This document shows, piece by piece, positions 1 through 61,900 of a stretch of DNA of 64,000 nt (position 1 is its first letter; each line of letters opens with the position of its first letter). Source of the stretch: Apostichopus japonicus. Lineage: Eukaryota > Echinodermata > Holothuroidea > Aspidochirotida > Stichopodidae. The DNA is taken from NCBI RefSeq assembly GCF_037975245.1, contig NC_092562.1:21965054-22029053 (forward strand), in the 5' to 3' direction. The translations under genes and the position numbers were made by a program. A model generated the notes under the pieces. The model had not been told where the DNA came from, made no database searches, and saw nothing but the letters and a program-made list of their open reading frames with translations.

Positions 1-2440
1 AAACTTTTCTAAAGCGCCTTTCTTAATTTATTTGCTTTACGATCTTTTACGATTCCGTTCGAAAACTGACAAATTGTTCGTTCAAAAAGGTTGGTTACAT
101 TCAGTATTAATGACATGCATGCAACTATAGAGAGAAGGCAGAAAGCGAACCATCATCATCGTTAGCCTTCATGGTAGAGATATGATAAACAACTTTCCTA
201 AACTGCTACAAAAAGTTGTATTCAATTTGTTTAGTTAGACAGGTTAATCGTCCTGCGTACCGAACACTTGTGTGTTAAATATGACATTGGTCCACATGTG
301 CTTGAAATTTTAATTTTAATTTAATTTTTATTGCTTTCTTAATTTGCAAGGCTCATTGTATGTATTGGAGGTTTTATTGGAGGATTGCTTGTTTTCGAAG
401 TTAGTATACATGGTGTTGGTATTGGACTGAAGCTATAATCAACACTATTTACATTCACATTAAACTAAAATGAAAAGGAAAGCAGAGCGAAATTACATGC
501 TATCATGTCTTTGACAGTGGCGGCCAAGACGATCTGGGGGGGGGGGGGGGTGCAACTAGGGGCAATGCATATCTTTTTTTTGGGGCGGGATATAACACTG
601 ATATAGAGGAGGGGTGTAAGGGGTTTCGTCTCCCCTTTGGGGAGTAAAGTGACTTAGACGCAAACATGGTGCTATCATTTGCTAATTTTTCACATTAATG
701 CATTTGCATAAGCTGAAACGATTAGCCTAATTCTACTTATTTTGGATAAGTAGCATTTCTGATTGGAGCAACTGAGGGGGGGGGCAAGGGGAAAATATGA
801 GGGCAAAATTGCCCCCTCATGCCCCCAGTACTGTGCTTTGGTGGCACTTTACGGCATCATATATTTACAAAATAGCAGCCCCTGACAAGGCATTTAAACC
901 TGTGTATATCTCTTATAAACGCGGAAGATTTACCTTAGATATTGGGGAAATTGTTCGTAACGCAGTGATCTACACTGTAAAAAAAAATCGTAAAGGTTTG
1001 TCTTGATTTGGATTATTGTTTACAGAGGGAGAGGATTTTTCTCAGTTAAGATCACAAAACGAGTTTTCTAAAACCAATGTAGAGCGCAAGGTTTCCTCAT
1101 TTTTACGGGTTAGAAAGGAGAACTTTAGCTGGATGAACGAAAATCTATCAGAACGCTTTTCTATTACTGAATATACGGATAAACGTTTTACCAGATTATC
1201 CGGAAAGTTACTGTTACTCTGTCCAACAGGTAATGTTTATCTCTGCAAGCATTTTTGGTTTTGACAAAAGCGCACATACGATTAATGTTAACACATTTGC
1301 TAGAATACGTAAAACCGGTTTTCGTTAACCCATCGATCTCGACATACACGCCAACGGCCACACTCGCACCAAACTTGGTTACCAACGAGGTAAATTTCTC
1401 GAATTTTAAACAGTTTGCACCCATTAAATCAAGTAACTTAGCTCTTTCATGATACAGTAGGATATGCTCAACAAAAGGGAATCGCATTTCTTTCAAAGTA
1501 TTTGATAAATTCTGTATTTTCGTGGTAAAATTCGTCACGTCGGGTTCGTTGATGCGGTGGAGATGGTTAGGCTTGCAGGAGCATACAGCATCTGTAGTAT
1601 AGTAGCTCGTATACTAAGGCCCAATGTTACGTGTTAGGCTATATGCTACACAATGAACGTATACTGTAGCTAGCTTACTACGATGAGTGTACAGTATAAT
1701 ACAATAACAAACGTTAGGCTAATCTATTCCTAAAATAAAGCAGGCCTGAGTCTAGCCTTTATAGTTTAGGCCTAATATCACGTCAGAGTAAACACAGAGT
1801 CCCTCTTAGTTTTGGCGTTATACGTTTAGACGGTGTACAAAAGGTAATTGTGCATATAACTAGGTCAAGGCTAGTGCAATGAAAATGTACAAAGAAAGCA
1901 GGTCCTCCTGTTTTCTAAATTCAGAAAATGTGGATGGAGACTTAAAAGTAAATAAGGCTTAGACTTAGGCTTACAACTTTGGGGTTCCTTGCTGCTGAAA
2001 GCAAAAGGAAACTATGCATTCAGATTTGTGTGTGTTTGGATGCATGTATATGTACCCAAGTGACGCCTAGCTAAGGTTCAGGATTAGGGAATGCCCGATG
2101 TTCATCACATTCACTATGTAGATGCATTATGTATAGTGAGTGCAAGAACAGTATTGTTTTTGGTAGTTATATCATGATAATGAATGAGGTCACTGGGTCA
2201 AACCTGAAATCTACATATGTTGTTAGCATACTCGACAACCGCAGTTCCCATTCTATCGTGTAGTTAAGATAAAACAGTTGTGTGTTGATGTTTATTAAAT
2301 TTGATATATTAGCATATTAATGAGGGGGTGTGGCGTCATATAATTTTGTAACAATAAGCAATAACTTGATAGTTTTTACCCGTCTTAAAATCATGAAGCA
2401 TGCATCAAACGTAAAGCTATACATGATGCAAACTATCACA
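1..2440. other. No supported gene
   Basis: AT-rich, non-coding in appearance. Contains G-tracts near 538-550 and 775-785. Short frames here have no recognisable similarity or splice context. Confidence 0.6.
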
Positions 2441-12149: not shown

Positions 12150-27341
<15,192 letters not shown>

Positions 27342-34037: not shown

Positions 34038-34459
34038 TACGGAGAGCCAAACGTTCCATAAATGTCGAAAAAGAAAGTGAAGTGTCCAAGTTAATATATA
34101 TATGTCCAAATCGATATCAACATGTTACAATTCGATATCAGCATGTTACAATTCCATATGAACATGTCGAAACAAAATACAATATGCCATTGCGTCTATC
34201 AACATGTCAAATTCAACATCAGCATGTCGAAAACTTGTAACAGCATGCCATTACTACATTGGTCATGTCAACATGCTATATTTACGTCGTGCTATAATTT
34301 TGGAACTTCGGCGCGCGCCAACGTTTCATATATGTCGAGATTTATTTCAGTATGTCCAAAACTTGTGTCAGCATGGTGAGCGAAGAGTAGTGAAGTATTG
34401 CCATGACAACGTTGCACATGGTTCGTGTCGTTCACACGGTACTATGGTTGAATATACTG

Positions 34460-35180
34460 TAGCGGAAAGCTACGATTTTTCCTTAGTGAGATACGTTTCG
34501 TTCCCTCAGGGGTTACATCTGTTGCGCTCCGCGGAGGTAACGAGAGATGTTTATCCGAAACAGGAACAGGAACTGATTACGTAATTTTGCTATATCGATG
34601 TATTCCCGTGACTGGCATAGGCAGGCACGGCGGTAGGTGTGTGAGTCGATCCCATTGGTCGCAACCCATCGTAGTTATATACAGGTAGTCCATGATTGGT
34701 CTAAGCCTTTTTTTTACAGTTTATGTACGGACGTGTGTATACGGGGGTTATTTCCGGGGTATTTTAATGAAGGGTTCTTTCGTAAATGAGTGAGTCAGAG
34801 AGTCGGAGAGTCGGTCGAGTGCAAGACGAGGAACTTTCCTTCCTCGTGGTAAAGCCTTTGATATTTGCCTAAGTCCAAACAAATGTGTTTAGGCATTTTA
34901 GAGTGCCCGACACCTGCGCTGCCCGAGTCCAGCGGAATGCCCGAAGCCTGTGCTGCCCGACACCGGTGGATTGCCGATGTTTAGACTGCCCTACCCTTGC
35001 GCAGCCCCAGTGTTATGCCTGCGTATCCTTGGGTTGTGCCCGACCCCAGTACGTTATATTGGGCAAATGTAAATATTGTGTATTATACGCTGTAGATGTA
35101 GAACGAGATGAGAAATTATACTTTTATTAAACATACCACTCTGGTGTCTGCCTCCTGATTTAGAGTTAATCTGTACCCGT
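34460..35180 (+). mobile_element. Possible solo LTR or LTR-like segment
   Basis: Starts TGTAGCGGAAAGCTACG, a common LTR-like opening with a short palindrome. It is GC-richer than its surroundings and contains an ATTAAA (35126-35131) near its 3' side. Its 3' boundary and a target duplication could not be fixed, so this is tentative. Confidence 0.25.
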
Positions 35181-35690: not shown

Positions 35691-36619
35691 TAATTTTATA
35701 ACACTAGGTGCCCAATGCAATAACAAACAGCACTAACGTTATTTGCCTAACGAACGAAGAAAAGTTTTATCGGAAAATACTTGACTAAAAGTACCTATTT
35801 CGCCATTACTTGTTCATATATTGCGATGAAATATATGCTGAGATAAACAATTAATTATTAAATACTAATCTTCGCATGATTCGGTGAGAAATGAAAGATA
35901 TATTCCGATCGAAATTCTTACAGGTATGCGTAACGTAACATATATGAGTACTGCGTATACTATTTCAATTACATATACGTTAGGATCGGAGTGTCTGTTG
36001 TTATGTTGTGAGGGACGCTATATACGAAATGACCTTTGTACCAGGATTACGTAATAGCTGATGATGGCTTTACCCGTGTTTGTGCCCTGAGGCATGTTTA
36101 CTTATGGCGATCAAATTTTGTCGGTTACAATGATACTTCAAAGTGGGTTTTCTCCTTCTGTTTATAGCTCCATGATTCAACCATAGTACCGTGTGAACGA
36201 CACGAACCATGTGCAACGTTGTCATGGCAATACTTCACTACTCTTCGCTCACCATGCTGACACAAGTTTTGGACATACTGAAATAAATCTCGACATATAT
36301 GAAACGTTGGCGCGCGCCGAAGTGCCAAAATTATAGCACGACGTAAATATAGCATGTTGACATGACCAATGTAGTAATGGCATGCTGTTACAAGTTTTCG
36401 ACATGCTGATGTTGAATTTGACATGTTGATAGACGCAATGGCATATTGTATTTTGTTTCGACATGTTCATATGGAATTGTAACATGCTGATATGGAATTG
36501 TAACATGCTGATATCGAATTGTAACATGTTGATATCGATTTGGACATATATATATTAACTTGGACACTTCACTTTCTTTTTCGACATTTATGGAACGTTT
36601 GGCTCTCCGTAGAAACAAG

Positions 36620-39642: not shown

Positions 39643-41133
39643 TTACGGAAAACAGCCGATCCTGCCCGCCAGGCTCTGGAATTGAACTTCCAGGCCCCTA
39701 ATCTTTTCCTCTGGAAGACCAGGTTCGGATATCATTTCTGCAAAGTGTCTATCCCAGTCTACTTTCTTCTCTGGACGCCGTGGTACGGAATCTGTTTCAT
39801 CGTCACCTTTACACTTACATTTCTTTGCAAACGTTTCACAGTTGTACGTAAACCAAGAATAATTATTTACATTGCGCCTAACAGCCCCATAGGCTCTTTG
39901 TACGGTCTCGTGTTCGTCGTAGCACTCTGATTGGTGATAATGATAGCGATAAACCTCTCCCGGATTGAACGAAACGACCTCTTCGATCTCGCCTCTCTGG
40001 TATGTGTTACGAATAATCTTCATCTTTCCATTGGCCATTTCTTCAACGAATATTGCGTGACAATTAGGATGGAGGAACCATTCGTACTTGCTAATGTGGT
40101 CTCCTCTTTTCAGCTCTTTCAAGTCTTTAACTATTCGACAATCGGCACCAGACCCAGTGCCTAACCAAGATGCAACGTAGCCAAATACATGGCCAACTGC
40201 AAGACCGCCAAAGCCGAGCAAACATGCCAGCAGTATTTCGAATACCCAGCTGGGGGAAAAGCAACTGCAAACGAGCCCAGCGATACCACCTGCCATCCAA
40301 CCAAGGTAACGAACGAAACAGTTATCTGATTCCGCCCAGTCGAGAAGCACCATGGATATGAATGCACCAGTAACGGTCATTAATACCATAAGTATGGCTT
40401 TGGGAGTAAGCAGAGCAACTAGGCCTCCACCCAACGCTGTCCCAATGCTGCTGAAGATGGCCATGGAAAACTGACGGATTACAAGCTCTGTGAATGTCTT
40501 CCATGTGATATCACCCTCTTCCAGTCTTTGGTAAGCAGCGTAGAACTCCATCAAGAAAAACACAGTTTGCAGGCCAAAAATCGTAATGATGCCAATTTTC
40601 TCGGCTCCTCCGAATAACAACTCTACTAACTCGGCGGTAATGGGCCTGCCAAAGCTTTTCACAGCTTGAACCACTGAGTTGACTCCAAACCATTGCGTCT
40701 GAAAGCTTTCCTTGCCCTCTCGCTTACATTCTTGGACTAACGTTTGACAATTCTTGAAGAGAAGGTGGTAACCCTTTTCTCCGAGTTTATTAAGCATTAT
40801 CCTAAGCATCTTAGAGAATGGTATGTTTTCTAGATCCTCATCACATCTGTAAAGTTGCCCCATCTCATCGTCCAAGCTGATCCAATTTATAGCCACCTCT
40901 ATGCCATTCTCGTTCTTTGCCCTCTCAAAGACGCACAACTTTTTGTCTGCTTCATTGACTCCTACTACTATAGCTGTATGAATGATCCCATAAGGTCGAT
41001 GCCAAGCAATTCTGTCTCCAAAACTCAGGTAGCTGTCTATAACCCTGTAGTGCTTTCTATCAATTCGTGTCGTCTTTCCTGGTGGAGAAAGAAGCATCTG
41101 CTCCATAAAACTCGTTTCCCTCCCGAGAGCCAT
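39643..41133 (-). CDS. Intronless two-headed LRAT-like membrane protein A, 496 aa
   Basis: A single uninterrupted frame of 496 residues starting in a good context (ACTATGG). Residues about 35-150 form an LRAT-like domain: LSFGDRIAW, His52 in IIHTAIVVGV, Asn128-Cys129 in NCQTLVQEC, then GKESFQTQW, which resembles the G-x-x-S-x-Q tail after the NC motif of LRAT proteins. Residues about 182-325 contain roughly five hydrophobic segments (about 182-200, 221-243, 245-264, 276-291, 297-324), many Gly-rich. Residues about 340-445 repeat the fold: GDHISKYEWF, His359 in CHAIFV, NCETFAKKC with Cys432. LRAT/HRASLS enzymes are Cys-His acyltransferases or phospholipases acting on lipids. Here the first His and the Cys are kept in both domains, but the second His of the usual ViH motif is not obvious (CVFERA; IIRNTY). 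It pairs with a divergent paralogue at 46.3 kb. Substrate unknown; membrane topology is inference. Confidence 0.85.
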   Translation of the reverse strand: MALGRETSFMEQMLLSPPGKTTRIDRKHYRVIDSYLSFGDRIAWHRPYGIIHTAIVVGVNEADKKLCVFERAKNENGIEVAINWISLDDEMGQLYRCDEDLENIPFSKMLRIMLNKLGEKGYHLLFKNCQTLVQECKREGKESFQTQWFGVNSVVQAVKSFGRPITAELVELLFGGAEKIGIITIFGLQTVFFLMEFYAAYQRLEEGDITWKTFTELVIRQFSMAIFSSIGTALGGGLVALLTPKAILMVLMTVTGAFISMVLLDWAESDNCFVRYLGWMAGGIAGLVCSCFSPSWVFEILLACLLGFGGLAVGHVFGYVASWLGTGSGADCRIVKDLKELKRGDHISKYEWFLHPNCHAIFVEEMANGKMKIIRNTYQRGEIEEVVSFNPGEVYRYHYHQSECYDEHETVQRAYGAVRRNVNNYSWFTYNCETFAKKCKCKGDDETDSVPRRPEKKVDWDRHFAEMISEPGLPEEKIRGLEVQFQSLAGRIGCFP

Positions 41134-41208
41134 AGTGACTTTTTACCCCAATGTTGTCGAAAGTCTGAAAGAAGAAAGGATAATAAACTGTACAATGTGC
41201 AGGTATAA

Positions 41209-41226
41209 ATCAATCAATCAATCAAT
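41209..41226. repeat. (AATC)n microsatellite
   Basis: About four to five AATC units about 75 bp upstream of the gene A start codon (on the - strand). Confidence 0.85.
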
Positions 41227-42480
41227 CGGGTGGGAGCAAACTAATGGGAAGCATAGATTGGCTGTCTTAATATTCACTGAAGTCATAGCCTTAAGTAATT
41301 ATTGATTACATATTTAAGTAGCGTTAATTAGTTAAGTGTTCTGCAGGTACAGGGCAGTGGTGGAAAATAACCAGTTTGGCAAATTAACAGTGAGGAAATA
41401 CAACTGTTGGGTCATGCACTGCTGATAGAAAAAGGAAATAAATTGCTTCTCTTATTCGGTTTAAGCAATTCTCAGGATTTTTAATCCATTGCTGATCATT
41501 AATACCGATAAACATTTCATAGAGTTATATTTATCACAATATTGATCACATATGCAACCGTACAATTATAGTCGAAGAATCTGTGGAGCGCGGTATGGGA
41601 CAGTTGCATTGTATAATGTCAAGCGTCACTTGCAATAATCGCGGCACATTTAGCTTAAAACAATTCTGAAAATGCTTGAACGTTTCGTAGAGGTTGATCT
41701 GAATCCTCCATAATTGATTATAAGGTTTTAATAAGACTTTAAGGTACAAGTAATGGGAGACGATTAGAGTGAGAAATGATATTTAATTTATTAATTTAAT
41801 TAAAATTTCCTAACTTTGGCAATTTGAGTGATCAGATTTTGTCTGGATAATTCTTTATTTGGGACCAACTGTGACTCACGTAAAGTCGGCATTCAACTAC
41901 GTACTTTTCTTCAGAAGAATTTCTTTCTGCAAAACTAAAAGAATTTGGTAAACTGGGTGGTATATGATCACAATACCCCAACCCTTATAACACAGAGGTC
42001 ATTGCTCACTTCAATGTTGGTATACAACACACTGTTTCAGTATGCGCAATTACTCCCCCCCCCCCACCACCACCACCCACCCCAGAATGCTACAGGAGGG
42101 GTTTTAATTCATGTTCTAACGAACGGTGAAAGACTATAGAAACATTGATTGTAGTTAAGGGACAGATAGAACTAACATTTCACTAATATGATGAGCAATA
42201 TGCAGCGCACCGGGGTATCCCGTTAGGATATCCAAAGCGTTAAGTGTTCTCATGATTAGTGAATCCCTACTAGGGCCCATTTGCGCGAGACAGCTTTGAA
42301 ATATTAACCAAGCTAGATTCGCCCCGCGAAAATGAGAACCAATGTGTGCTTGAAGGATCATAACGATGGTCACAATGGAACAATAAGGCTACAGGACATC
42401 ACATTTTCGATGTATGAAAAATTTACATATTTGTCCATAACTGGACTTCCAAAATGTGGAGCAATATAAATGAATTCTAA
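41227..42480. other. Shared upstream region of LRAT-like gene A
   Basis: No coding signal. Contains a C-tract with CCACC repeats near 42053-42083. Any promoter of gene A should lie at its left side. Confidence 0.5.
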
Positions 42481-42487
42481 CAATTTG

Positions 42488-42970
42488 AAAGATCTCCTTT
42501 AAGTTTAACAAACGCATAGAAAAAGAACAGATGAACAACTCATATTTTAAAAGCATTTTGGTCATGTATTATAGCATAGGCCTGTACTTACACGTTAATG
42601 ACAACTTCCAGTTCCGTATAGCATGAAACACCGTCACGGAGTAATGTTGTGAAAATACAGTATACTGTCAGATTTACAGTATTGTATTGCACACAACTTA
42701 ATAACTTGCTACTATCACTTAATAACTATATAACTTCATAACTTACCTAAAGAGCTCCTTTAAGTTTAACATACGCATAGAAAAAGAACAGATGAACAAC
42801 ACATACAGTATTTTAAAAGCATTTTGGTCATGTATTATAGCATAGGTCTATACTTACACGTTAATGGCAACTTCCAGTTCCGTATAGCATGAAACACGGT
42901 CACGGAGTAATGTTGTGAATATACAGTATACTGTCAGATTTACAGTATTGTATTGCACACAACTTAATAA
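42488..42970. repeat. Tandem duplication, ~260-bp offset, between the LRAT-like genes
   Basis: Two copies (about 42490-42710 and 42750-42970) share CATAGAAAAAGAACAGATG, AAGCATTTTGGTCATG, CGTATAGCATGAAACAC and CAGTATTGTATTGCACAC in the same order at high identity. Confidence 0.9.
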
Positions 42971-45480
42971 AGTTTCCTACATAACGGCACAAACTGCCAA
43001 CTCACAGTGATACTGTAAGGGGTATTTCCTCTTCAGAAAAAAGAAAGAGTGCTTTGGGTGTACAGCTGTACACTCCAATGGTTTTCATACTATATATTAT
43101 AATTACACACACATAATACTTCTTTGCAGACCGTACATTAAAGGGTGATCATTTTTATTATGTTTATATTGATATAGGAGATATTCATAAACCTCAGTTA
43201 TGTGAGCTGACGGGCTTACATCAATACAATCAATGTTTGCATTTGCTTGGCGCCCTTTAAAGTCCAAAGTACTCAATTTATCGGTGTACACACTTTACTT
43301 TTGTTTTAGTCTAAAAAATAGGTAAGGCACTGATATGTAATGACTTTCGCTTTATGGCTTCATGCTGCGTGATACTAAAATCAAATTTCAGTAGAGATAG
43401 TTAGCTGGTTTAGGTAAGTAAATGGGTTCTGTGTTTAATGGTAACCTTCCATGATAAGTGTCTAAATATGGAGGGTTGAATCAAAGTTCTTTAAGAACTT
43501 AAACATAACCCTTCCTTTGGTGGAAGTAGCCTATGTAAGTGGTAATCCTCAGGAAGTTTTGAAAAACAAAATGCTGGCCAAACTAAATAGTCCTCACACA
43601 TGGCACTTGGCTTATGATCCCCTTCCGCTATTTTTGTACTCAGTCTGACAATTAATGAAATCAGTTAACTTAAAGGTGTGTTCCGAGTTGAGTTGTACCT
43701 TTGAGTCAATTATGGCTAAGTTCATCGTTCTTGCATGGTTCTATTATGGCGTAATTGCAAAATATGATACTTTATGTAAAAGTTCACTTTATGTACCTTA
43801 CCTTTCCATACAGGTCATCTATAGCCACTGCCCTTTGTTGGGACAAATTCAATGTTTGCTCTTGAACTTTTTCATACTTACATAGTATTCATACGTTGAC
43901 CAAAGTTGACCTCAAATGACCTTTAACCTAATCAAATAACGACAGGCTGGAGTATGACTCAGTAAGATGGAGTATGAAACAAAAAATTACGCTTCCCAAG
44001 TTTGAAGTTGAACCATTATCATGTCCTTTTTATTGAGCTCCTGTGTGAAATCAAACGACCTTTGACCTCTACTGAGCCATTCTATTATTGTAGTCACAAA
44101 GTTTCAATCACATATGCAAGTTGTGAAGTTCAGTGAATTTTTGCTTCTGCAGTGCGAATACAAGGTTCTTAGATTTTCAACTCCGGTGACCTCAAATGAA
44201 CTTTCACAAACACACACCAGGGTTCTTCTACTTATCATGATACATTCACACGGCAACGTATAAATTTAAACCAATACATACATAGGCCTACATACATACA
44301 CTCATCCACCCACATACACCCAACATGTTATGGTACCTCTTTAGTGCAGGTAAACATGAAACGCACAGGGGAATCCCTTATATTGCAACACCCCATGCAA
44401 TACGTTTTACAAACAAGTTGAGATATATATAGATCTATGTTGAAGAGACCGTGTACATTACAAATGGAAACACGAATGTATAGTGAACAAAGGCTAAACG
44501 CATACGGCTTCCGTGATTGCAATTGAGATTCTCGCTCAAGTTCAACATTGTTTGCTCATAATGAGCCGCTCAACCTGACACTGAGACACGTATGTATCGT
44601 TTTGTATGTGCTATCTTATTTTTTAAGGCACCGATAATTTCCTGCGTTTTGTTTTCTTTCATCTAAAATTCAAGTTCGAATCATAAGTCACGGTCAACTT
44701 TATAACGCTAGATGTACTACATGTTAGATATAGGCCTAGATATATAATCCGTGTAGAGATGATGGACCGCTCTGCTGGCGTAGAGTTCCACACTTAGTAT
44801 AGTGCGAATGCAGCTAGTATGGATATCTGTTCTTACTAAACTTACTTGTCAGGTGTAGTACAATACTATACACCAGCAGCTTCGCATCATAGTCTGGATT
44901 TGTACACTAGTTTCAGTCAAAGTTAGCCTCTAATGGTTCTGCATTAAAACTGTCTGCTGGTTCCTTGCAGACACTGTTTGTGATTGCATGTTTGATTTCT
45001 ATTGTTATCGTAATACCTATGGAACGCGAAAAGGAAGGAAACGATTCCATATAATGTATTCGTTATATATTATTGAGGTGTTACAAATACATTTGCTAAA
45101 AATAGGAATTATTCATGTTCTATTTGTGAAAATTAATTTGTTACAAATATGTTGATCTTTCTGTAGAAAAGGAATGATTGTAATTAATTAGGAAAAAGTA
45201 AGTAAAATATTTGTTGTTGTTGAAACAAATTTCACACAACTACTGGAATTTCTAGGTGATGTATGCTTTGCCCTCACACATCATAGCCACATGTTTCACT
45301 GTCCCTCATAAGTATTATTATATTGCTTGTCGAAGGCAAAGGAATTTATGCGATGGTGATGGCGTGTGCATATGACGCCTTGGCTATTAAACGCTGTTAC
45401 TCAAAGAAAATGTGAAGTGGATGAAATCCATACTTAATATGTTGATCCCCTCTATGAGTAAAAGAAACCTATGATATTGG
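42971..45480. other. Intergenic between the divergent LRAT-like genes
   Basis: No coding signal. Scattered TGACCT/AGGTCA words (43.9-44.2 kb) and an ACATAC-rich stretch near 44270-44315. Confidence 0.5.
43907..43922 (-). promoter_or_regulatory. DR4-type nuclear-receptor-like site (repeat-derived)
   Basis: TGACCT-CAAA-TGACCT, i.e. two AGGTCA half-sites on the - strand spaced by 4. A degenerate relative follows at about 44187 (TGACCT-CAAA-TGAACT). Confidence 0.35.
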
Positions 45481-45483
45481 TGG

Positions 45484-45496
45484 AGGTCAAAGGTCA
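45484..45496 (+). promoter_or_regulatory. Perfect DR1 (AGGTCA-A-AGGTCA)
   Basis: Two consensus half-sites spaced by one base, 0.8 kb upstream of LRAT-like gene B. DR1 is the classic arrangement for RXR/HNF4/PPAR-type receptors. It is part of the repeat, so function is not implied by the motif alone. Confidence 0.4.
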
Positions 45497-45771
45497 TTGA
45501 AGTCAACATAGGCCAAAGTCTGGAAACCTTATAAGTACGATAACTGAGAAATGCCATTGTGGTTGAAGTTAATAAATGGTATGTGGATCTCCCCTGATGA
45601 TTAAAAGCATTCTATCGTAATTGTCGGACATCAAAGTTCAATCGAGTTTAACAGAGTCCAAAATATGAAAACCTTGTAATTACGATAACCCAGAAATTTC
45701 ATCATGTTTGGAGTCAAACGTGGTATGTCGATCGTGAGTACAAGAACTTTATTGAAAATTGAGGAGTACAA

Positions 45772-45787
45772 AGGTCATCTGAGGTCA
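45772..45787 (+). promoter_or_regulatory. Perfect DR4 (AGGTCA-TCTG-AGGTCA)
   Basis: Consensus half-sites spaced by four, about 0.5 kb upstream of gene B, inside the degenerate repeat. Confidence 0.35.
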
Positions 45788-46031
45788 ACAGAGGCCAAAA
45801 TATGAAAGCATTATATGCACGATAACTCAGAAACTTCATCGTGGTTGAAGTTCAAATGTGGTTTGTAGACCCCCTTGATGAGTACATATTAAGAATCCTG
45901 TTGGAGTTCAAAGGTTACTTAAAGTCAACAGAGGCCAAAGTCTGAGAACCTGATAAACGGGACACCAAAATCTTAATCTACGTTGAAGATAAAGAATTTT
46001 ATTGAAATTGGTTGAGGTCAAACGCTAATTG

Positions 46032-46047
46032 AGGTCAACAGAGGTCA
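46032..46047 (+). promoter_or_regulatory. Perfect DR4 (AGGTCA-ACAG-AGGTCA)
   Basis: Consensus half-sites spaced by four, about 0.25 kb upstream of the gene B start. An identical element is at 57677-57692. Confidence 0.35.
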
Positions 46048-46287
46048 AAGTCTGGAAACATTGTAAGTGAAATAACTCTGAAAATGCAGCTTAGTCGTAC
46101 TTAATACGTAATATGTGTATCCACCTTGGTCTGTACATCAGTAATCATGAAATTGGTGAAGGTCAAAGGAATTGAGGTCAACAGAGCTCACTTTGAAAAT
46201 ATTGTCAATCTGATAAAGTTAGTTTGGTTTTGCCTTTTTCGATAGGTGTATGCATATCTCGTTTGATAAACCGGAATAACCAGAACG

Positions 46288-47781
46288 ATGGCTACACTGC
46301 GGAGAAACTTTCTCGAGGCGATGCTGCTCTCACCGACGGGGAAGACAACCAGAATTGAGCAAAGACATTATCAGGTTATCGAAAGATATCTCAGCCCAGG
46401 CGATCGTATCGCATGGCAAAGACCATGGGGTGTCATACACACTGCTATAGTGTTATGTATTGATGAAGACAGGGGAAGGTTGTGCGTTTATGAAAGGTCG
46501 AAAGATGAAGACAGCAAATGCTTGGAAGTTACAATCAACATTATCACATTAGAAAAGCAATGGGGCCAACTTTACAGATGTGATGACGATGCGGAGCAAA
46601 TGCCTTTATCGAAGAAGTTAAGAATCATGTTGGATAAGTTTGGTGAGAAGGGATACAACCTATTCGGAAAGAATTGTCAGCACTTAGTAGCAGAATGCAC
46701 TCGTCATGAAGGTAAAGAGAGCTTCCAAACTAAATGGTTTGCAGTAAATATGACAATTCATGCCATCAAAAGCTTTGGGAAGTCCATCACTTCAGAGATA
46801 GTTGAGGCGTTCTTTGGTGGGGCTGAGAGAATTGGCGTCGTTACCGTGGTTGCCATCCAAATCATCTTTTTCTTGATTGAGTTTTACGCAGCGTGTGAAA
46901 GACTGAAAACAGGAGATATATCATGGAAGCATTTCGCGGAACTGGTAATCCGCCATTTTTCTATGGCATTCTTTAGTTGCATAGGATCGGCCTTGGGTGG
47001 GAGTCTCGTTGGTTTTCTCCTTCCTAAGGTGATATTGTGGGTAGTTCTGTCAGTCTTTGGAGCCCTCATCGCCGATTATCTTCTGGACTGCTTTGGGACA
47101 GATAACCAATATCTTCGTTATCTTGGTTGGATGGCTGGTGGGATCGTCGGATTCGTATGCGGCTGCATCTCTCCCGACTGGGTTATTGAAATTCTCTTGG
47201 CATGCATGCTTGGTTTTGCTGGTCTCTTCGTTGGCCATACTTTTGGTTATTCTGCGTCATGGCTGTTCAACCGCTCTGGCGCCGATTCTCGAATCGTTAA
47301 TGAATTAAGCGACCTTAAAACAGGGGACCACATAACTAAATACGAATGGTTTTTGCATCCACATTGCCACGCAATCTTTGTAAAAGCCATGCCCAACGGG
47401 ACAGAAATGAAGATTATTAAGAACACTTATCGAAGAGGAGTCATAGAAGAGATTGTTCCATTTACAGAAAGGAGTGTCTATCGCTACGAGTATCAGCCCT
47501 CCGAATGTCACGATAGCGATCAGACGGTACGAAACGCTCGGTCGAAGCTCGGGGAAGACCACTATAACTGGTTTACATACAATTGTAAGACATTTGCTAA
47601 AGAGTGTAAATGTCGTAATAATGACGAGACAGATTCAAGAGCGCCCCCACAACAGGAAATGGATTGGGATCAACAGTTTGAAGAGATGATTGCAGAACCT
47701 GGTCTACCAGAAGAAAAAGTAGAACAGTTGTCGAGGAGGTTCACAAAAATGATGCGTAAACTGAATTGCTTTGCAATATGA
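46288..47781 (+). CDS. Intronless two-headed LRAT-like membrane protein B, 497 aa
   Basis: Paralogue of the gene at 39.6 kb, alignable end to end with only one- or two-residue gaps. N-terminal LRAT-like domain: LSPGDRIAWQRPWGVIHTAI with His51, then NCQHLVAEC with Cys130 and GKESFQTKW; NCQH is even closer to the classical NCEHF. Hydrophobic core about 183-327, including FFGGAERIG, LGWMAGGIVGFVCGCIS and EILLACMLGFAGLFVGHTFG. C-terminal domain: GDHITKYEWFLHPHCHAIFV with His361, then YNCKTFAKECKC with Cys433. Both paralogues end MI(S/A)EPGLPEEK-rich and cysteine-containing (NCF / GCF). The start is ACGATGG. No introns interrupt the frame, unlike the neighbouring genes. An acyltransferase or lipid hydrolase activity is plausible but unproven. 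Confidence 0.85.
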   Translation: MATLRRNFLEAMLLSPTGKTTRIEQRHYQVIERYLSPGDRIAWQRPWGVIHTAIVLCIDEDRGRLCVYERSKDEDSKCLEVTINIITLEKQWGQLYRCDDDAEQMPLSKKLRIMLDKFGEKGYNLFGKNCQHLVAECTRHEGKESFQTKWFAVNMTIHAIKSFGKSITSEIVEAFFGGAERIGVVTVVAIQIIFFLIEFYAACERLKTGDISWKHFAELVIRHFSMAFFSCIGSALGGSLVGFLLPKVILWVVLSVFGALIADYLLDCFGTDNQYLRYLGWMAGGIVGFVCGCISPDWVIEILLACMLGFAGLFVGHTFGYSASWLFNRSGADSRIVNELSDLKTGDHITKYEWFLHPHCHAIFVKAMPNGTEMKIIKNTYRRGVIEEIVPFTERSVYRYEYQPSECHDSDQTVRNARSKLGEDHYNWFTYNCKTFAKECKCRNNDETDSRAPPQQEMDWDQQFEEMIAEPGLPEEKVEQLSRRFTKMMRKLNCFAI

Positions 47782-58900: not shown

Positions 58901-61900
58901 AGGGAACTACTCGCAACAAACAAACAAGCAAACAGATTAAGTAATCTAGCTAATTGTAATCCTTCTGTTATAGATAAACGGATTATTTCATGTAATGGAT
59001 ATCTCATATGTAAACAGAGGATTCAGAGTGACAAGGAAGGCAGAATGACAAAGGGATGGGTCAATTGTATTAGTCAAAGATCGAGATAATTCAAAAGTTT
59101 TAATAAGCCGCCGGACTGGAGAGTATTCAAAAGTATAAACACAGACACGAACCCATATTTGAACTGGTAGAAAAGGCACCCCGACCCATCAGGCTATCTT
59201 TTGATTCACCACATGGTTGAGGGATTACTGAAACCATTATACAGGGAAATGTTGGTGGAGGAAGGGTGGCGCACGGAGAGGGGGAGAGGGGGGGGGAGAG
59301 GGAGGCCTTGATTCTACTTGACCGTCTACCACACTTCAATAGATGGTGGAAGGCAAAGGCATGGATCAATTGTATATATTAGACAAAGACCAAGATAATT
59401 CAAAATGTTTTAAGCCGGATCGTAGAGTACTAAAAGTATACAAAGACACACGAAACCATATTTAACCTGGTAGAAAAGGCAATTGCCCCACCCCGGCTAC
59501 CCCGTTCCATCAGGCCATCTTTTGATTCGCCACACGGTGGAGAGATTACTGAATTCATAATACAGTGGTGGTGCCTGAGAGGGGGTGGGGGGGGGGAACT
59601 CTTCATTCTACTTGACCATCTACCATACGTCTACCTTACTCTTCTTTGAAGGCAAATTCTGTTGGTGACAGGTTGAACAGATACGATCTAGCTGCTAAGA
59701 CGAATGACGGACTGATCGAAGAGATTTATCCAGATGTACGAGAAGAAATGGAGATCCTTAATATTAAAAGAGGGATCCTCAGCGCTTTACAAATACAAGT
59801 AACAGAGAAACGTCAGACTAAGATCGTTCGGAATGACCTCAGCATCCATGGAAACTGCTCCTCTGATATGTCCATCTCCAAGTTGAAAGGAGACGATCTA
59901 ACGACAGTGTTCAGTGTAACCAGGGACTTAACGTCGTGTAAAATCAATACTGCACAGGATGAGAATGTATGGTTAATGCTTTCTCCAAGCATGGTAGGAC
60001 TATTGTTTTCCCCTTCAGTGCATTTTGATGCTTTCCAAGCTCATTATTGTACAATGCTTTCCTCGTCCGTGGTATGCATATAGGTCGCAGGTGGGGGGGG
60101 GGGGGTCGGGGAAGGTTTGCCGAATCCCCGTTGTCAATCGGGTAGTATGACGAAATGTGGGATGAAGGTTAATTTATTCCCTTTTTAATAATATAATGTA
60201 GAAAAGTTGAAATACTCATAGAGAGGGCGCTGTGATATACTTGCTCTAAAAGCCCGACCTGTTTGCATGTGTGGTACACTACCTGTTTATGAAATGTGTC
60301 ATCCTTTCACGTTCCTTGTTTGTGTAGAATGTATAAAAATAATTTCCTGGTTATGCTTTCTACCCTCAACGTCTTTTCATGAATGTTCATTTCCTCGTCC
60401 ATTATGCTGAAGATGATTAAAATTGTTCAATGCTTCCAATGCAGTTATGATTTTTGTCATGACATGTTCAAAGTTTTCAATGGTAACATCGAAATGCTTT
60501 GCTAGTCCCTGAAGTGTTGTTGTGTTAATATTCTGTTTGTCAGTTTTCAGTTAATTAAGCCTTCGTTTAACGTTGTTTCCTATCCAAAGATGAACCGTGC
60601 ACCGCTTAGATCGTCTCAAAACTGCAACTACGTGACGTCATCTGGTAGGATTGAACACGTGAGCTGTCTAGAAGTCCATACATATGAGCCGATGGGGATC
60701 CCTGTAGCGGGAACCATGCAAACTACAATTCATCAACATCTAGAGTTAATAGATTACGAAAGGGAGAACTACATGGATTATTCATTCCGTAGAGGTAAGT
60801 TAAATGCAGCATATTATGCACACTGTCAAGCCCACGATCCAGCTGAAGTTTCGATGAGGACTGAGCCACGACCCACTTGATGCCCACTTCCCTTCATAAT
60901 CGATGCTCTGAATACGAAGCTTGGACTATGTGGACTATGAACTATGGATGTTAAAATTAGCATAATTCGTTTGTCCAGGTTATACATTAGTTATTATTAA
61001 TTTAATTAAGTAATGAAAGACTGTCGTGTAGTGCTGTACTTATACGATGAAAAACTTTCATACCGTTAAAAAAAAAAATCCCTGATTTTCAATCCATGGA
61101 AAGTTCCATAGTAATTCGGTGGAATCAAGGGAACCACCGAAAACAAAATTAGCAATCTGCTTTAGGATGCGTCTCAAAGTTTCGGGCTGTCGGTTTAGTG
61201 TATAAAATATTCAAAACAATCAAATTAACCAGGAATAACATTCATTGACTTATACACCAGCTAGGAAAGGGTTGAAGCAAAATTGTAACACCCTCTCCCC
61301 TGCGGCATTTATTGACTGTGTATAAGTTGTACAGGTCGTTGAAAAAACCCAAGAAATACTAGAACAATGTCTTGCAGTAGCACCCTATATCGAATAACCT
61401 GAGGTATCAGACCATATTAAACTTTAAAATATCACGTTAAGAATAAAGTCAGCCCCTCAATCACACAAGTGAATTCAGTGTGACAACCGTGTCGACACGT
61501 TCTCTGTATGTATAGGTTACAAAGCCTATACTAAAGATAATTCAATAACCATTATATGTTAGTTTAAATCTTTTAGACTATCGTATATGTTGTAGTGTTT
61601 TATTATATCAAATTCAATCATCATTATTTGTGCAGCGTCAAATTCGTGTACTCGTGTATAGGCCTACTCGTCCCACATAGAAAAACAATATATAAAAAGG
61701 AGGAAAATTAATAAATCATGCAAAAAATGTCATCTCATTAGGTATGTTTAATTAAGCTTCTTTTCCCCCCGTTTGGGAGGGTGGACATTGAATAGACAGG
61801 TCTAATTGTATAATGGTATCTTTCACGTAAGAATAGGGCATCGTATGACTACCTCTGTAGTGAGTTGCCTATACATATAGTGTATGATGGTATTTTATAC

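Follow-up and report, generated by a model that had tools for sequence, protein, structure and literature searches.

Proteins of the LRAT/PLAAT type remodel phospholipids and are described as one-headed, with a single membrane anchor as a rule. In the published accounts, PLAAT (HRASLS) proteins, except HRASLS5, have one head and a single C-terminal membrane helix (PMC4624172, PMC5133064), and vertebrate LRAT has one head with a vertebrate-specific hairpin (PMC5133064). The mechanism described for PLAAT enzymes involves a cysteine that attacks the acyl ester of a phospholipid, a histidine that serves as base and a polar third residue that orients this histidine, the acyl chain then passing to water or another acceptor; the third residue is variable, being Asn in HRASLS1 (PMC4624172). 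Phospholipids are given as the substrates of both HRASLS/PLAAT and LRAT (PMC4624172, PMC5133064), and Tox-Act1, a permuted NlpC/P60 toxin, is described as a phospholipase (PMC12994826). Here we analysed a 64,000-nucleotide stretch of the genome of the sea cucumber Apostichopus japonicus (contig NC_092562.1, positions 21,965,054 to 22,029,053 of the forward strand; hereafter the window), which contains two related genes, A and B. Judged by sequence comparison, each of their products, P0001 and P0002, carries two homologous LRAT-type heads, the N-head and the C-head, which flank a hydrophobic core. With PLAAT3 and PLAAT4 these proteins share the Asn-Cys motif, the His and Cys of the N-head and, by the model of the C-head, the LRAT-type permuted papain-like fold, but they differ in having two heads around a multi-segment core and a C-head in which, by the profile and joint alignments, neither triad His is present. 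With vertebrate LRAT they share the Pfam family and the nucleophile motif.

The original prediction had placed an LRAT-like domain at each end of both proteins, and the searches support this placement. Whole P0001 and P0002 score 27.1 and 35.4 bits with Pfam LRAT (PF04970), above the cut-off of 24.3, and two LRAT stretches are matched in each at a lax expectation value (E) of <=10. LRAT is the top Pfam match for both whole proteins and for all ten further whole family proteins scanned. The isolated heads are weaker. Specifically, the C-heads cut out as 166–167-residue pieces match LRAT at E 1.4e-4 (P0001) and 5e-5 (P0002), slightly below the cut-off; after trimming, the C-head of P0001 lies above it (E 2.3e-5, 25.1 bits) and the N-head of P0001 below it (E 0.005, 17.6 bits). 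The family profiles give a clear result. In what follows, C-numbers denote contigs of this genome (G000) and L-numbers loci, with L001 and L002 being the window pair. The N-head profile comes from alignment A2, which holds eight of 12 N-heads and excludes the most diverged ones (L015, L022, L023 and L024), and the C-head profile from alignment A3, which holds 13 C-heads. LRAT is matched at E<=1 by 8/8 N-heads (best 2.7e-14) and 12/13 C-heads (best 1.1e-9). The two profiles match each other with 99% probability (E 2.9e-18), and each also matches a profile built from 14 LRAT heads of bacteria or phages (N-heads E 1e-20, C-heads E 7.9e-23). The top sequence matches in the PDB are PLAAT3 and PLAAT4, at E 5.5e-4 for the N-heads and 1.6e-3 for the C-heads, over the Cys half of the head only; this search does not separate LRAT from PLAAT, because the sole LRAT entry in its results is a chimera on HRASLS3 that scores among the PLAAT entries. 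Additionally, both heads of both window proteins have a GD motif on the first strand and a nucleophile Cys in an Asn-Cys motif.

Gene A (39643..41133, minus strand) is an intronless frame of 496 residues plus stop. On this strand its N-head spans residues 31–142 (40708..41043), with Gly39-Asp40, His52, Glu70 and Asn128-Cys129 in alignment A2, followed by the core (residues 147–333; 40135..40695) and the C-head (residues 336–445; 39799..40128). Gene B (46288..47781, plus strand) is likewise an intronless frame, with 497 residues plus the stop TGA. It comprises, on the plus strand, an N-head with His-Thr-Ala-Ile and Asn-Cys-Gln (residues 30–143; 46375..46716), a core (residues 148–336; 46729..47295) and a C-head with H-P-H-C-H, Lys at the second triad position and Asn-Cys (residues 338–446; 47299..47625). 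The genes lie head to head with 5.2 kb between them, and their stop-to-stop frames count 499 codons at 39643-41142(-) and 503 codons at 46270-47781(+); given the local base composition, the chance of 496 given codons of one frame staying open is ~6e-16. The two proteins are 61% identical over 492 aligned residues; by region, identity falls from 65% (N-head) through 63% (core) and 60% (C-head) to 46% (tail). By codon position, the genes are identical at 70% of first, 82% of second and 43% of third positions; the nonsynonymous distance (dN) is 0.28, and the Nei–Gojobori (NG86) synonymous distance (dS) was returned as -1, which we took as saturation. Because of this low identity at third positions, the dN value and the apparently saturated dS, genes A and B look like old intronless coding genes under purifying selection.

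We next considered the structure of the C-head. An AlphaFold model, built from 18 rows (four window heads and 14 bacterial or phage heads), reached a predicted local distance difference test (pLDDT) score of 81 and a predicted template modelling (pTM) score of 0.78. By VIA-align, four PLAAT3/HRASLS3 entries came out on top, with Z of 9.3–9.4, a root-mean-square deviation (rmsd) of 3.2–3.4 and 96–99 residues aligned of about 102–105; in this model the C-head of gene A has the permuted papain-like LRAT fold around an altered site. Aichivirus 2A, the B. cereus C92 peptidase (3kw0) and TseH also align to the model (Z 6.0, 5.7 and 4.7, respectively); they differ as single-domain viral or bacterial proteins and score below PLAAT, at Z values that can mean a common arrangement. 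A full-length AlphaFold model made from the two window proteins had a pLDDT of 37 and was set aside.

Active-site residues were counted in one alignment of 58 heads, comprising 12 N-heads and 13 C-heads, 10 single C-heads, 10 heads of one-headed proteins and 13 bacterial heads. Outside this count stand L006, L025 (same gene as L008), L027, L028 (mostly N), L030, L036, L037, L072-L075, the N-half of L004 (split over two frames) and, being close to L060, the bacterial L061. The bacterial heads have His in the base column in 13/13, His in the third column in 12/13 and Asn-Cys in 13/13. The one-headed heads of the same genome keep the base His and the Cys throughout (10/10 each), and their third column holds Glu in four, Gly in three and His, Gln or Ser in one each. 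Among the N-heads of the two-headed proteins, His and Cys are both kept in the same nine of the 12 and both lost in L015, L022 and L024. The window N-heads read His, Glu and Cys, the base being His52 in gene A and its counterpart in gene B. By these residues both the nucleophile (Cys129) and the base (His52) are in place in the N-head, and Glu70 is a likely candidate for the third residue.

The 23 C-type heads present another pattern. Their base column, that of LRAT His60 and PLAAT3 His23, holds Cys in 22 and Ser in one, and their third column holds Arg in 21 and Lys in two; H355, H359 and the nucleophile Cys432 are invariant in 23/23. The register obtained with hhalign agrees with the 58-head alignment in putting Cys358 in the base column. 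In gene A the motif H355-P-N-C358-H359 lies at 40057..40071(-), Arg375, in the column of the second triad His, at 40009..40011(-), and Cys432, in the nucleophile column, at 39838..39840(-). The C-head thus keeps its nucleophile Cys432; two of three alignments assign its base column to Cys358 and its third to Arg375, near which H355 and H359 are invariant. The original prediction had listed CHAIF among the LRAT-like motifs of the C-head and had described both heads as Cys-His domains. In the same two alignments, however, the His of CHAIF is shifted by one position from the catalytic column, where Cys stands, and the C-head has Cys for the base His and Arg/Lys for the second His, so that CHAIF is not the canonical His motif there and equivalence of the two heads is not supported; the third alignment, A5, speaks against this with H355 in the catalytic-His column.

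The architecture is not unique to the window pair, since 12 frames of the genome have both heads by alignment: L001 and L002 on C2; L003 on C19; L005, L007 and L008 on C5; L016, L019, L022 and L024 on C7; and L015 and L023 on C10. L004 has its N-head split over two frames, and L006 is a frame without an N-head. Ten of the two-headed frames were scanned with Pfam. Two LRAT stretches were found in seven of them, namely P0001 and P0002 (E<=10) and L005, L007, L008, L016 and L019 (E<=0.05), and one stretch in L003 (below the cut-off), L015 and L024. The N-heads of L015, L022, L023 and L024 are placed by alignment and tree, because Pfam gives one stretch for L015 and L024, and whole L022 and L023 lie outside the scan. 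More widely, the genome yields at least 40 matches to PF04970, at least 29 to P0001, at least 54 to L019 and at least 32 to L032. One-headed LRAT proteins with hydrophobic stretches following the head occur on C5, C7, C13, C15 and C20, and ten short C7 frames (146–209 codons from stop to stop) consist of a C-type head alone.

Several further features were observed in this family. Many members, though not the window pair, have a Cys-rich N-terminal stretch ahead of the first head, paired as C-x-C or C-x-x-C and frequently followed by E-W or E-Y (L005, L007, L008, L015, L016, L019, L023, L024, L029, L034, L035 and L068-L071); no Pfam family lies over the cut-off in this stretch in the members scanned. 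On C7, between 25.82 and 25.94 Mb, five one-headed LRAT genes near L032 are 87–98% identical to it, and two further C7 genes with identical scores lie at 25832931 and 25894254; the cluster suggests recent duplication. For L005, a weak Pfam hit to a pore-forming domain (15.9 bits against a cut-off of 27) was taken as an effect of hydrophobic composition.

The history of the heads was read from an IQ-TREE analysis of all 58 heads over 119 columns, with the root placed on the bacterial heads; N2_L003, B_L057, C2_L003 and B_L039 were flagged in it as long rows. All 23 C-type heads form one clade (100/99), and the N-heads together with the one-headed heads form another (98/93). Because N- and C-heads fall in separate clades, a recent internal duplication of one head per protein was rejected. 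Two sub-clades, one uniting C2 and C19 and the other C10 and the C7 heads at 1.3 Mb, are repeated in the N and C halves of the tree. From this pattern we infer that the N- and C-type heads had diverged by the time the family radiated and have stayed together since; the heads were joined early, perhaps in one event, a single joining being a preferred reading only. The N-heads of L016 and L019 form a pair, and their C-heads group with the ten single C-heads (97/89). Because they nest in this way, the stand-alone C-type genes of C7 were rejected as the source of a fusion, and these head-only genes appear to be derived, through later losses of the front part.

The stretch between the heads is hydrophobic and Gly-rich, as had been proposed. 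The earlier figure of about 140 residues holds for the hydrophobic part of this segment; the whole inter-head segment counts about 190. Hydropathy gives four (threshold 1.6) or five (threshold 1.3) hydrophobic segments in gene A and three or five in gene B, all of them between the heads, with none after the C-head in the window proteins. Among the relatives, L007 and L008 have four at 1.3, L019 has four at both thresholds, and L003 and L005 have other numbers; L015, L022, L023 and L024 have none at 1.6, and three of these four are without the N-head residues too. The two heads may lie on the same or on opposite faces of the membrane. Some cores are related over a short motif: the core of the window pair matches those of the C5 two-headed proteins (E 1.9e-4, 48% probability), and pooled two-headed cores (C2, C5 and L019) match the C13 one-headed cores (E 1.1e-4, 56% probability), the latter with a score of 34.4 against <=19.5 in 50 column shuffles. 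COX1, used as a hydrophobic control against the core, gave E 0.78. Equating the window-pair core with the C7 one-headed core was rejected, as the matches (E 0.065 and 0.086) fall inside the shuffles, one of 50 being higher (24.6 vs 16.8), and the C5 cores gave no match to the C7 one-headed cores either (E 0.023).

These findings lead us to favour, with moderate confidence, a tandem LRAT-family protein in which a membrane-bound, PLAAT-like thiol enzyme, the N-head, is joined to a rewired C-head; such a protein is probably membrane-bound. The core would anchor the protein in the membrane. The N-head, held there by the core, would load Cys129 with an acyl chain taken from a phospholipid and hand this chain to water or another acceptor, and Glu70 could orient His52. 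The C-head would be a rewired partner head rather than a classical second enzyme, which may serve acyl or ligand binding, form a redox or metal site or carry out a different chemistry, and which would be kept under selection. Phospholipid activity of the window proteins is suggested by analogy only.

A number of results pull away from this picture. The isolated N-heads are weak for LRAT (E 0.015 and 0.041), and in the isolated N-half of P0002 RTE1 (E 0.0011) and PilZN1 (E 0.004) outscore LRAT, all below their cut-offs. The bacterial and phage LRAT rows in the alignment behind the C-head model may favour the LRAT fold; a Euglena complex subunit (VIA-align Z 9.1, rmsd 4.3) ties with PLAAT3 before Z drops to 6.1 for the next entry, and Foldseek of the model found no PDB match at E<=0.001, with no PLAAT among the best 50 matches listed. 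Glu70 is on the third-residue column only in the 58-head alignment and two columns off it in alignment A4, and the MAFFT alignment A5, by inserting three residues, brings H355 into the base column. The 12 N-heads are not united in a single clade apart from the one-headed heads (two changes; on one side of a branch in 1% of the bootstrap trees), so that one joining alone would require that some members later lost the C-head; alternatively, joining may have happened more than once. Finally, the window-pair core shows no match above shuffles to the C7 one-headed cores.

What the C-head does can be read in two further ways. It is a tentative possibility that the C-type head represents a novel class of active site built on the LRAT fold, in which Cys358 and Cys432 replace the Cys-His pair and, surrounded by the conserved H355, H359 and Arg/Lys375, make up a metal site, a redox-switched dithiol or a thiol-to-thiol acyl relay with the N-head. 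Decay among the two-headed proteins strikes the N-head residues and the core (three N-heads; ten head-only genes), and the C-type pattern stays in 23/23, with Ser for Cys358 once; the C-head is nonetheless not universal, because one-headed N-type proteins without it exist. Rather unlikely, in our judgement, is a double-barrelled phospholipase or acyltransferase with two active thiol heads, in line with the two lipid-modifying heads of the original prediction, in which His355 or His359 would be the base of the C-head and Asn376 the third residue in most two-headed members. We retain H355 as a candidate base because A5 puts it under the catalytic His, and the invariance of H355, H359 and Cys432 is consistent with an active C-head, as is the Asn that follows Arg/Lys375 in 10/13 two-headed C-heads, given the Asn described as third residue of HRASLS1 (PMC4624172). 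The hhalign and joint alignments argue against it, since in them Cys358 occupies the base column and Arg the third, and so does the replacement of Asn376 by Phe in all ten single C-heads and two two-headed members and by Ser in one.

Three other explanations of the proteins were weighed. It is improbable that the proteins are peptidases or isopeptidases of a PPPDE/DeSI- or RTE1/TMEM222-like kind rather than lipid enzymes. P0002 reaches 20.1 bits (E 6.2e-4) and P0001 11.0 bits with PPPDE/C97 (PF05903), below its cut-off of 29.2; whole P0002 stands at the RTE1 (PF05608) cut-off of 29.4 bits (29.4 bits, E 9.8e-7), its halves below it (N-half 19.5, C-half 14.3), and its isolated N-half prefers RTE1 to LRAT. 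No RTE1 row appears for P0001 in the Pfam scan, LRAT leads for all whole proteins scanned, and PLAAT entries are the top PDB matches of both heads. Weak cross-matches are to be expected here, since LRAT, C97 and TMEM222 are classed in a single cluster within the papain-like superfamily (PMC10318531). We consider it very improbable that neither head is catalytic and that the proteins are membrane scaffolds, sensors or decoys binding lipid or a protein of a pathogen. The family may include non-catalytic forms, to judge from L015, L022 and L024, which lack both N-head residues and hydrophobic segments at 1.6, and the near-copy clusters resemble families in conflict; the window pair, however, keeps the N-head His and Cys and the C-head Cys under apparent purifying selection. 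An echinoderm LRAT proper, storing vitamin A by retinol esterification, is highly improbable: a sea cucumber gene that may or may not be related to the window genes is called LRAT in a SwissProt-based annotation (PMC13403383), and one account has invertebrate LRAT-like genes hitting HRASLS, not LRAT, in reciprocal BLAST and regards LRAT as a vertebrate innovation with a 30-residue hairpin (PMC5133064).

Beyond the animal enzymes, the bacterial and phage LRAT proteins (L038-L061) have the head in common with the window proteins, and L038, L046 and L058 have an Ala/Gly-rich hydrophobic tail after it; they differ in having one head each in the frames read. In the phylum to which the Limnothrix record belongs, 98 genomes were sampled; 21 of these had an LRAT match, and in none did one frame show two whole domains. 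Of 38 candidates from viral contigs scanned with the N-head profile none was confirmed. Within the sea cucumber genome, the one-headed proteins (L068-L071 on C13; L031, L032 and L035 on C7; others on C15, C20 and C5) share with the window proteins an N-type head and a hydrophobic region and differ from them, in the frames read, by having no C-type head. Among the open-licence PMC papers listed in our searches, PMC10672672 and PMC12443165 (with the phrase 'two LRAT') not being covered, we found no report of two-headed LRAT proteins or echinoderm LRAT families, and on a text search LRAT and related terms were absent from PMC8834484. The domain-architecture lists of InterPro and UniProt may hold tandem LRAT entries. 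The two-headed architecture may already be listed in protein databases without a description. A radiated family that links a classical head to a conserved altered head by way of a hydrophobic core would show how the LRAT fold gains chemistry or regulation, and it offers a natural series for testing the altered site: both heads present, the front head decayed, and the rear head alone.

Other features were noted in the window. Near-identical protein letters are encoded at 34162-34584(+) and 36125-36466(-), on opposite strands, as an inverted duplication whose copies lie about 1.5 kb from each other. Motifs like those of kinesin motors occur in frames at about 20572-24810(+), which we take to be KIF2-like exons, and the frame at 59616-60083(+), with the motif NIKRGILSALQ, presumably belongs to a large lipid-transfer or vitellogenin-type protein. 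On the mitochondrial contig C35, COX1 reads without a break under code table 9 (that of echinoderm and flatworm mitochondria), with AAA as Asn at many positions, for instance in GGFGNW; the protein does not resemble that of flatworms and looks holothurian, in keeping with an echinoderm genome. Elsewhere, the LRAT gene of the phage-like contig (L038) has beside it a 374-residue frame at 277-1401(-), presumably RelA/SpoT-like, and contig C29 (about 31 kb) carries five COX1-like pieces in addition to the COX1 of C35, as a nuclear insert or a second mitochondrial assembly.

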